From: Candidatus Pacearchaeota archaeon
GTDB taxonomy: Archaea > Nanobdellota > Nanobdellia > Pacearchaeales > GW2011-AR1
Reading direction: 5' to 3'
Length of the DNA: 39,834 bases
NCBI GenBank assembly: GCA_009694725.1
Contig: SICV01000007.1
Coordinates: 1-39,834, forward strand
The position numbers were made by a program, and so were the translations under genes. The notes beneath the pieces were generated by a model that saw nothing but the letters and a program-made list of their open reading frames with translations, was not told the origin of the DNA and did no database searches. Numbering within the stretch: the first letter of the stretch is position 1; each line of letters begins with the position of its first letter. Shown here piece after piece: positions 3,830-11,683 of the stretch.

Positions 3830-3900
3830 TGGCCTCGCGGAGAATCGAACTCCGTTAGCACGAGCTTCAGTCGTGTACATTCCCATTATGCTACGAGGCC
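3830..3900 (-). tRNA. tRNA-Phe (GAA)
   Basis: GGCCTCG TA GCAT..ATGT A CACGA CTGAAGC TCGTG CTAA CGGAG TTCGATT CTCCG CGAGGCC; anticodon GAA; all four stems pair. Confidence 0.95.
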
Positions 3901-4199: not shown

Positions 4200-4590
4200 C
4201 CGCGTATCCTTGCGGATAGGGGTTAGGCCAGATTCTGTCGAAGGTCGTCCTTTCGAACAAACCCTTCGTGCTACCATCTGTCTCTGCGTGCGGCTAGGGC
4301 ACTTGCACCAATACAGGTAATCGTTTCATCCTATCTCTCTCGTCGTTGCTCCGTGCATACTTCATTGCTCGGAGAGAGCGGTGGCGTTTCTGTGCTAGAG
4401 CTTGACCTCGCGGCCATCCGTCTTTCAACGGAGTACTGTGTTTCCTCGATTGCTCAAGGGGTGTCCGGACCTTCCTCAGGAAGAGAATTCATTACTCCTC
4501 ACAGAACTTTGTTCCGTGGGAACTTCAACACTTACGTGATTGAAGTAATTCTTGCCAATCGAATGGCACTCCCCGTCGGTAGCTCCCCGA
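4200..4590 (-). ncRNA. rnpB: RNase P RNA (boundaries approximate)
   Basis: CR-I-like TGAGGAAGGTCCGGAC (about 4466-4483) and CR-V-like CGACAGAATCTGGCCTAAC (about 4220-4240); 5' GGGGAGTGCC (4565-4574) can pair with GGCCTAACCCC at the 3' end as P1/P2. Confidence 0.85.
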
Positions 4591-4629
4591 CTCACAAGAT
4601 ACAAGATTTGAGATGGTTTTTAAGGGTAT

Positions 4630-5750: not shown

Positions 5751-5772
5751 GAAGCACGGAGGAAGGCAAGAA
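5751..5772. repeat. pre-23S processing stem, 3' arm (22 nt)
   Basis: gaagcacggaggaaggcaagaa is the exact reverse complement of 9391-9412, flanking the 23S gene. Confidence 0.9.
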
Positions 5773-5776
5773 AAGC

Positions 5777-5791
5777 GGTTACATCTGAACA
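5777..5791. repeat. pre-23S inner processing stem, 3' arm
   Basis: ggttacatctgaaca is reverse-complementary to 9340-9354 with one mismatch. Confidence 0.8.
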
Positions 5792-6078
5792 TTACTTATT
5801 TTTGTGGCTATTAGTGGTCGCGCGCTCACTCCTCGAAATTCTTGGAATTTACACGCCGACTCTATCAACGTCATCTTCTTTGACGGCCTATGTTGTCTCG
5901 TCTTACGGATGGCTTCGTTCTTAGATGCTTTCAGAACTTATCCACACAATGCGTAGCTGCTGGGCCTACTTCATAATAACCCATACACCAGAGGCATCCG
6001 ACTACCGTTCCTCTCGTACTAGATAGTCGTTCCATTCAGACAACTGCGCGCCTAATAGATATCATACAAACTGTCTCG

Positions 6079-6438
6079 CGTATATTAGTCAACGATTATG
6101 TTTTTTCGTTGTATGGACTATACCTTCATCTTCACACTTCTTAGATAGTTATGTGAAGAGATCAGCGTCTTACCTGTTTATTCCAGGTCTAGATTTTCAT
6201 TGGAACTGACGGTTCCTCATCTAAGTCTCTACGGGGTCAATTACGACTTCCCTCGGGGTTGCCATCTTATCTTTTGGATACAAAGGGTCCACCGATACAG
6301 ACATGCATCAACATGTCTGTCCTCCCACTCTTGCGAATGAGAGGTATGAGCTGATTATATTTTTCATGCAATCACTTGCATGCAACGCCGCTGTTTTTGA
6401 TAGTTGCGATTCGATACGGGTTTTCGTTGCTTTCTTTA
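6079..6438 (-). other. group I intron in 23S rRNA at E. coli site 2593 (IA-like; 3' end +/-2 nt)
   Basis: 5' exon AACGT pairs with IGS GCGUU (U-G wobble at splice site); P3 AUCAGC/GCUGAU; P7 GAGACUUAG / GGUAUAGUCC; P7.1 GGAAC/GUUCC; P7.2 ACCUG/CAGGU; P8 UCUUCACA/UGUGAAGA; exon context GGGTTAAGAACGT ... CGCGAGACAG. Confidence 0.88.
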
Positions 6439-7061
6439 ACGTTCTTAACCCAGCTAACGATCCCTTTTAATGCGTGAACTCCGACACCCTTGGTTGCTTA
6501 TGCACAACCAGGATAGGAAGAGCCGACAGCGATGTACCAAACCGCGCCGTCAATATGAACTATCGGGCGCGACAAGCCTGTTATCCTTGAGGTACCTTTT
6601 CTGTCACACACAGGTCCTAGTAAAAAACCATGTGGGGTCGCTAAGCCCGACTTTCGTCTCTGCACCCCGTGCTGTGGGGAGTACAGTCAGGTAAGCTTTT
6701 GCCTTCGCACTCAACGCTAGATTTCCAACCTAGCTGAGCTTACCATATAGGCCCTGCCGATATCTTTTCGGCAGGGTGCCGCCCCAGCCAAACTGCCCGC
6801 CTGATGGTGTCCCCTCCCGGGTGAGCAACGGTATTCGATATGGGTAGTGTTACATTGGTGCCGAAGCTCCTACCTACGCTATGCATATCAAGTACAGTTA
6901 CAACAACAAGTTGCAGTAAAGGTCTACAAGGTCTCCGCTTCCCATTAGGCGTCACCGGCATTTTCACCGGTCAGTGAGTTCAGAAGGTTCTGGTTGGGGA
7001 CAGTGAACACCACGTTAAACCATTCATGCACGTCACCATTCAGATGACAAGGCATTACGCT

Positions 7062-7443
7062 CAACATTGTTACTGTCATTAGTATTTTACCAATGATGGA
7101 ATATCATTTCTGATATTCTCTCCATATCACTATGAAGTTCGGAACATATCTTATTACAAATATATTTTGTAATTCGAGCGTATGTTCTCTGAGGATTGTT
7201 CTTACAAAAAATAAGAACTCTTTCCTGCTGATTATCTCTCCATTTCGATTTTTAGATTTTTATTCTCTCACGAAAATAAAATACTACGAAACTTCCTCAA
7301 GACGTTCCAGCATATAGCTCAATTTATTCAATTTGTTTAACTCGCATATTTTAATTCTGCTCTACTGAATATCATTTTTCTCTACGAAGCCTTGATCGTC
7401 TTTCATTTCTGAAATCCGTAAGGCAGTTTGAATGTTTCATTCA
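7062..7443 (-). other. group I intron in 23S rRNA at E. coli site 1931, 382 nt, ORF-less
   Basis: Exon junction CTCTTAAGGT|AGCGTAATGCC; 5' exon UAAGGU pairs with IGS GCCUUA (U-G at splice site); P3 CGAG/CUCG; P6 GUUCUUA/UAAGAAC; P7 AGAGAACAUACG / AAGAUAUGUUCC; P8 AUUACAAA/UUUGUAAU; terminal G. Confidence 0.92.
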
Positions 7444-9242
7444 ACCTTAAGAGCCTCATAGATAGGCCCGCCGTTTGATGGGTCTTAGCTCCCTTGAAAA
7501 GGAGTTTGAAACACCACCACTGGGCAGGTCTCACCGATTATACTAGTCCTTTCGGATTTGCAATCGGCTACGTTTTTGATAAACAGTCGGGCGTTCCTTG
7601 TTATTGCAATCTACAAATGCCTTCTACATATCAAAGACAATCATAGACACCCCTTCTACCGAAGCTACGGGGCCAAATATGCCGAGTTCCCTCAACCAGG
7701 TTACACCTTTCACGTCTTAGCCTTCTCAGCTAGAGCACCAGTGTTAGTTCTCGGTACAGCTATCCAACACAAAGGTATTCTCTTTTCATGGACTCTAGGA
7801 GTCCGTGGGTCGCCTGACATTCATTCACTGCGATCGTAGCATTACGCTCCCGCAGTTTCAAATGGCACATACCTTCCGGTATGCCACATATCCCTAAGCA
7901 AAAAATACCATATAAGCGTTGTTAGTTCCGGAATATTAACCGGATGTCCATCGTCGTACGCAGTTAAGATACAACTTAGGGGCTGACTAACCCTTGGTTA
8001 AACGATAGTGCCAAGGAAACCTTGCTCTTTCGACGCTTTCCGTTCTCAGGAAAATCAGATCTTACTTCCGCCAAGATTCTTATTTCGCATCGCTCCATCG
8101 TGTCTCTCGACAGGACTTCTGCGCAATGCGAACACCTGTATACCAGAATAGTCTTACGACTACCTCCGGAGTATCGGTGACATGCTTAGCCCCGTCCATC
8201 TTCGACGCCTCGAACCTCAATAGGTGAGCTGTTACGCTTTCTTTAAATGATGGCTGCTTCTAAGCCTACATCCCTAGTGTCTCAGGGTCAAGACAATCTT
8301 TGTTACACTTAGCATGCACTGAGGGACCTTAACTCCGGTCTCCCTTGTTCGGGTCTTCGAACGGTACCTTACGCACCGCCCGCCACTCCTCCAGTATGCA
8401 GCACGCACGTTCTGAGTTGGAAGAAAACCCCGTACCGAAACCGGTCTGCAGGTTTTATCCGTACTGTACCACGCATGCGAAGCACTGGAAGGCTATACTG
8501 AGGCATATTTCTACAGGAACAAGCCATCGCCAGATTAGATTGGCTTTTCACCCCTACTCGCAAATCATCCAAGTGCATGTACACAACACTAGTTCGAACG
8601 TCCATTCTCCTTTCGAAGAACTTCCTTCTGCTCACGAGTAAATCATCTGGCTTCGTGTCTCCCGCCGGTGACTCACGCCCTTTCGGACTCGCTTTCGCTT
8701 CGACTTCATTCATTAATCTTGCCACGAGCGTGAACTCCTTGGCTCATTTTTCAACACGCACGTTACGACATCGTAATGCCGTAACCAGCTGTAACTACGA
8801 GATTTCAAGTCTTTTAACCCTCGATTAAGAGTACTTTTCAGCTTTCCCTTACGGTACTGTTCGCTATCGGACTTGGATCAATATTTAGGGTTGGCGATTA
8901 CTCTCGCCGTATTCGGACCTCCAATCTAGGGGGCCCTACTCTTTTAGAGCTCGACATACCGATTTCGTTTACGAGACTTTCACTCTCTGCAGTGCTTCAT
9001 TCCAGAAGACTTCAACTCATCGGCGCAGTCTCCTGCTCCACCACATCTCTGCCGTCGTTTCCAACGGAGATTCAGTTTGCCCTCTTCCCTGTTCGCTCGC
9101 TGCTACTAAGGGAATCACGTTATGTTTTCTTTTCCTACCGGTACTAAGATGTTTCAATTCCCGGCGTGCGCATGCTTCTCAGCATGTATGCGTTTTCGCA
9201 TTCGGAGATCTTGGGTTCAATGCCTGCATGCGGCTCCCCCAA

Positions 9243-9273
<31 letters not shown>

Positions 9274-9339
9274 AATCCAAACCAAGCTATCCTTCTCAAT
9301 AGTGTATAGTAAGTGATACATAAAAATTATGTATCTATC

Positions 9340-9354: not shown

Positions 9355-9390
9355 TTCTTCTCTTCTCACAATATAAATTATGGGAACAGA

Positions 9391-9412
9391 TTCTTGCCTT
9401 CCTCCGTGCTTC
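9391..9412. repeat. pre-23S processing stem, 5' arm (22 nt)
   Basis: Exact reverse complement of 5751-5772. Confidence 0.9.
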
Positions 9413-9579: not shown

Positions 9580-9777
9580 TTACTCGTAGCGAATCTGGTA
9601 ATTACCTCTGTCCCAGATACTTCCAGTAACATGAATAATACGTTCCCTTACTTCAGAAAGTGTTTGATGTGCGACGCGTAATGCGTCACGCATCACCCAT
9701 TCATTGAGATGTCCCTCTTCGGAAACTTCTCGTGTGGTTCCTTTCTGCTGTATGGTGACGGTGTATTGTTCTGTCAT
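9580..9777 (-). CDS. small protein in the tRNA-Ala/23S spacer (65 aa from internal ATG; 75 aa if start is at 9807)
   Basis: MTEQYTVTIQQKGTTREVSEEGHLNEWVMRDALRVAHQTLSEVRERIIHVTGSIWDRGNYQIRYE; protein-like composition; lies outside mature rRNA/tRNA. Confidence 0.55.
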   Translation of the reverse strand: MTEQYTVTIQQKGTTREVSEEGHLNEWVMRDALRVAHQTLSEVRERIIHVTGSIWDRGNYQIRYE

Positions 9778-9858
9778 AGTGTTGTGTGATTTCGAATCCA
9801 CTTTCAAAGTGGATCCGCCTTGTTACGATTCTCGAGAAGTCTGTTCCCGTTAAGGAAC

Positions 9859-9929
9859 TGGACCCACCGAGAATCGAACTCGGAGCCTCTGATTGCAAAT
9901 CAGATGTTTTACCATTAGACTATGGGCCC
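9859..9929 (-). tRNA. tRNA-Ala (TGC)
   Basis: GGGCCCATAGTCTAATGGTAAAACATCTGATTTGCAATCAGAGGCTCCGAGTTCGATTCTCGGTGGGTCCA; anticodon loop TTTGCAA; typical 16S-23S spacer tRNA of archaea. Confidence 0.95.

Positions 9930-10231: not shown

Positions 10232-11683
<1,452 letters not shown>

Follow-up and report, generated by a model that had tools for sequence, protein, structure and literature searches.

The DNA analysed here, referred to throughout as the window, is a stretch of 39,834 nucleotides from a Candidatus Pacearchaeota archaeon (contig SICV01000007.1) that carries an rRNA operon on its minus strand. Read in the direction of the operon, its features are as follows.

10232-11677, minus strand: 16S rRNA gene
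9859-9929, minus strand: tRNA-Ala (TGC) gene
9843-9858, minus strand: 6-bp hairpin, immediately 3' of tRNA-Ala
9793-9817, minus strand: 11-bp hairpin, close upstream of the spacer ORF
9580-9777, minus strand: spacer ORF of 65 aa, ATG to TAA
9430-9579, minus strand: structured spacer from the ORF to the 23S stem, with a fold z of about -6 for the 150 nt past the ORF
9389-9412, minus strand: 5' arm of the long 23S processing stem, its partner lying at about 5751-5772
5789-9319, minus strand: 23S rRNA gene, with a probable intron inside it at 7062-7443

The tRNA-Ala gene and both hairpins precede the ORF, and the 23S processing stem comes after it. The window shares with the standard archaeal operon (16S - tRNA-Ala - 23S) its gene order, the spacer tRNA-Ala and the long stems round both rRNAs; what sets it apart is a small ORF that adds length to the spacer, placed after tRNA-Ala and ahead of the 23S stem. 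A first-pass annotation, made from the letters alone, had placed this ORF in DNA belonging to neither rRNA nor tRNA, and there it indeed lies, between tRNA-Ala (9859-9929) and the 5' end of 23S at 9319. Since it sits outside the stems and the tRNA, it falls within the part of the spacer expected to be excised by processing. As to the rest of the operon, the insertion inside 23S (7062-7443, 382 nt, minus strand) is missing in a sister genome, and part of it resembles an Rfam group I intron family (28.4 bits, E = 2.4e-5, a sub-gathering score); it is a probable group I intron. Downstream of 23S, on the same strand, are an archaeal RNase P RNA (4212-4595) and tRNA-Phe (3830-3900).

The ORF had been drawn at first from a TTG at 9807, spanning 9580-9807 on the minus strand. 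The frame is open as described, but the ATG at 9777, giving a protein of 65 aa, is the better start, because both this ATG and the stop are kept in the sister. By shuffling, an ORF of 65 aa in a 934-nt spacer is unremarkable in length (P about 0.15). ACT precedes the ATG, with no SD or A-rich context, and no TATA-like box was seen by eye between the tRNA and the ORF. On codon usage, frame 0 scores highest of all six frames in both species, and the score of the window ORF falls under that of every reference gene. For the protein, which the first-pass annotation envisaged as compact alpha/beta, a strand-strand-helix-strand-strand arrangement was predicted in a poor model (pLDDT 53), so that the lack of any PDB fold match to it (Foldseek, E <= 0.001) carries little weight. 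Pfam gave no match at E values up to 10, LAGLIDADG and other endonuclease domains included, and no second copy of the ORF is present in the window's genome (636 kb, 10 contigs). What does stand above chance, unlike length alone, is that the ORF is conserved and that relatives repeatedly carry spacer ORFs.

An orthologue occupies the same place in the spacer of one other genome of the genus, G002 (L005:5344-5541, minus strand); the contig belongs to a Candidatus Pacearchaeota MAG, in agreement with the DPANN placement suggested at first pass. The two proteins are 69% identical, with the same start, the same stop and no indels between them; the rest of the spacer does have indels relative to the sister, among them a 24-nt indel some 30 nt past the stop. 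The ORFs differ by 41 substitutions, 19 of them at third positions, corresponding to dN 0.17 and dS 0.61; the dN/dS test proposed for this ORF thus returned about 0.28, a value from a single species pair that indicates purifying selection. When the same substitutions were placed at random, a mean of 6.3 synonymous codon changes was expected, as against the 14 seen (P = 0.0019), and the observed amino-acid similarity score lay above the random ones (P = 0.0003); the tests for conservative substitution give P values of about 0.0003-0.004 overall. The predicted pI differs widely between the two orthologues, 5.9 and 9.8. The search for homologues called for at first pass was productive only in part, yielding this one orthologue and no other convincing relative among 378 class genomes: with a two-sequence profile, family and class gave, beyond the two genomes themselves, weak chance-like matches in long frames or with stops, the sister was the sole match to the ORF in GTDB contigs, and there was no match in viral contigs. 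In G001, the third genome from this genus, the sequence ends 37 nt past tRNA-Ala, and a different ORF, of 68 aa, lies upstream of the tRNA.

At the level of the family, we took 66 complete 16S-23S spacers of at most 1500 nt, located through a DNA search with the 16S 3' end, and measured the longest ATG ORF clear of tRNA, applying a cut-off of 60 aa and dinucleotide-preserving shuffles. ORFs of at least 60 aa are present in the sense direction in 28 of the 66 spacers and in the antisense direction in 4, the shuffle expectation being 2.65, and sense ORFs are the longer (Wilcoxon P = 3.6e-6, with genomes counted as independent though related). Most are placed, like the window ORF, between tRNA-Ala and 23S. 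Of the 46 sense ORFs that reach 60 aa, 31 have RAA or AAG immediately 5' of the ATG; among short sense ORFs this context is seen in 57 of 368 cases (P = 5e-13) and, by the same mechanical criterion, among antisense ORFs in 2 of 34. SD-like motifs accompany 14 of 41 spacer ORFs, these 41 having been chosen by eye, compared with 16% of control ATGs (P = 0.006). The encoded proteins range from acidic to basic (pI 4.3-10), some being hydrophobic, and have no common charge or hydropathy. Spacer content also changes quickly, the spacers of one genus carrying unrelated ORFs or none. We conclude that many spacers of this Pacearchaeota family very probably carry translated small genes. The recurrence in relatives means that the window ORF is not an isolated oddity.

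Other features of the family's operons were noted in passing. In the leaders of L041, L047, L048, L083, L086, L087, L089 and L110, an ATGG lies upstream of the ORF start by 13 or 16 nt. In every one of the eight it is out of frame by +1 and begins a short, overlapping frame of 21-43 codons; it may reflect a leader common to these ORFs, or may serve translational control. Spacer ORFs of 59-80 aa in L053, L088, L094, L103 and L106 resemble, by eye, small two-helix membrane proteins. The 16S-23S interval of L070 (genome G029) is 7.9 kb long, with two tRNA-Ala genes, a DNA methyltransferase-like ORF and, antisense, a transposase-like ORF, both named by eye. In genomes G171, G205, G212 and G221 the 3' end of 16S matches in two pieces, and the common break at query position 349 suggests a putative shared intron site.

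Several spacer proteins are homologous to one another. LExxVDG proteins are encoded in L041, L086, L089 and L110, which represent four genera (phmmer values of 2e-8 to 9e-5 where L110 is one of the pair), and L079 and L115, from two genera, encode a further homologous pair; within single genera, L078 is homologous with L088 and L087 with L092. Run against 170 family genomes, a profile of the four LExxVDG members matched four loci, every one of them a spacer, and the L078/L088 profile found both spacer genes and one weak match elsewhere (G050, E = 8e-4). The model obtained for L110 from a six-member alignment is fair (pLDDT 79, pTM 0.63), with strands, a helix and a strand; Foldseek found no significant PDB match to it, and ten further spacer proteins gave nothing at the Pfam cut-off. 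The proteins of L044, L047, L083, L096 and L100 look by eye like LExxVDG members, with an N-terminal LE-x-x-x-DG motif. The four-member profile has no match in the window genome. The window protein itself scored 8.2 bits against the LExxVDG family, in the first profile round only, and the link between them that appeared on iterating the profile was dropped as profile drift.

One alternative is that ordinary orphan small genes fill any transcribed gap of a compact genome, the spacer merely supplying transcription. The fast turnover within a genus, the lack of a common charge or hydropathy and the lack of a known family all fit this explanation, but where homologues are shared between genera they remain spacer-borne, and the profile from four genera finds none elsewhere in 170 genomes. 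We regard it as a serious contender that stops a little short of being probable; it is compatible with a real ORF, and bears on the meaning of the ORF rather than its existence.

RNA structure raises a different alternative, in which the spacer is a non-coding structured RNA that aids folding of pre-rRNA, the open frame is coincidental, and two close species simply share the fold. The upstream hairpin picked out at first pass is real, an 11-bp stem at 9793-9817 that the sister keeps with two compensatory pair changes, and the hairpin at 9843-9858 has a counterpart of equal size in the sister leader, although the sequence there has changed. The ORF RNA is itself strongly structured, with a fold z of -5.9 (-2.9 in the sister), compared with a mean of 0.02 (sd 1.1, minimum -2.7) for 48 gene segments of the window. 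The consensus fold of the ORF pair is better in energy than 199 of 200 column shuffles, and three base pairs inside the ORF are changed on both sides relative to the sister. Furthermore, the length of the ORF is ordinary, and 18% of random placements of the substitutions leave the frame free of stops by chance alone. On the other hand, covariation in the pair is not above that of column shuffles, and of the six bases that make up these three compensatory pairs, five fall at third codon positions, which fits a joint constraint on RNA and protein, small as the numbers are, and is expected where a protein constraint also acts. The excess of synonymous and conservative changes also speaks against a purely structural RNA, which leaves unexplained the excess of sense ORFs in relatives. 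In those relatives the spacer ORF stretches mostly have z values of about 1 to -2, near those of the window's protein genes, and the 150 nt past the ORF mostly have z values of -2 to -7; the exceptions with structured ORF RNA are L047, L048 and L102, together with the window and its sister. The first-pass annotation had named stops and indels in relatives, with RNA structure conserved instead, as the result that would count against a gene: the sister has neither stops nor indels, in favour of coding, but the ORF RNA is strongly structured, which weighs the other way. Because the window ORF combines this structure with the lack of a start signal, a non-coding, structured spacer in which the frame is open by accident keeps some standing, though we consider it unlikely.

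Introns with homing endonuclease ORFs are already known, and common, in DPANN rRNA genes (PMC6125680), and the window's own 23S has a probable group I intron, but that the ORF is a remnant of a mobile element or homing endonuclease within the spacer is highly improbable, given that it lies outside the rRNA genes, matches neither LAGLIDADG nor any other Pfam family and has no second copy in the genome. The homing endonuclease ORFs of archaeal rRNA introns (group I, BHB; PMC6125680) are likewise protein genes on a DPANN rRNA precursor; they are found within 16S or 23S and are of LAGLIDADG type, whereas the window ORF is in the spacer, encodes 65 aa and has no family match. Searching two papers on archaeal rRNA operons (PMC8997704, PMC12918454) by term turned up no mention of protein-coding spacer genes. 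More broadly, the open-access literature searched yielded no description of spacer protein genes in DPANN rRNA operons, which is weak evidence that small genes in these spacers are new.

Some bacterial 16S-23S spacers, for example in Borrelia, hold protein genes; such spacers are long and contain known enzymes, effectively as separate genes. The Pacearchaeota spacers differ from these in being short, with intact tRNA-Ala and processing stems and orphan sense ORFs of 60-130 aa.

We take the window ORF to be, probably, a genuine small protein gene of the rRNA operon, lineage-specific and fast-evolving, and one case of the recurring spacer-resident small genes of this Pacearchaeota family. The first-pass proposal of a protein gene in an archaeal spacer gains from the sister orthologue, from purifying selection and from the sense genes of relatives, and loses from the structured RNA. 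Such a gene would be transcribed within pre-rRNA; cuts at the tRNA-Ala 3' end and at the 23S processing stem would then release a spacer fragment of about 450 nt, in which both hairpins precede the ORF, and translation would take place on this fragment or on the nascent precursor. Release of the mRNA by pre-rRNA processing is plausible, as it fits the anatomy, with a tRNA 3' end upstream and the 23S stem downstream. As to role, our preferred guess is a small, soluble protein supplied in step with rRNA synthesis. The wide spread of charge and hydropathy makes a single molecular role for all spacer proteins unlikely. The link to ribosome biogenesis raised at first pass found no direct support: neither families nor folds gave a match, and spacer proteins range from acidic to basic, with some hydrophobic. 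Such a role for the window ORF is possible, but, drawn from location alone, it is conjecture. A more far-reaching idea, that in Pacearchaeota the 16S-23S spacer is a dedicated site for small genes, their expression locked to rRNA synthesis, with the excised spacer serving as mRNA and some products forming spacer-exclusive families that act on or near the new ribosome, is speculative and we hold it doubtful.

Archaeal rRNA spacers are commonly viewed as processing waste plus tRNA. The present results make it a testable question whether RNA from rRNA promoters is translated in these archaea, and what the binding partners of the products are. If about 40% of the family's spacers do carry translated small genes, pre-rRNA would double as a source of mRNA, the supply of these proteins would be coupled to the making of ribosomes, and annotation would have overlooked a set of protein families.
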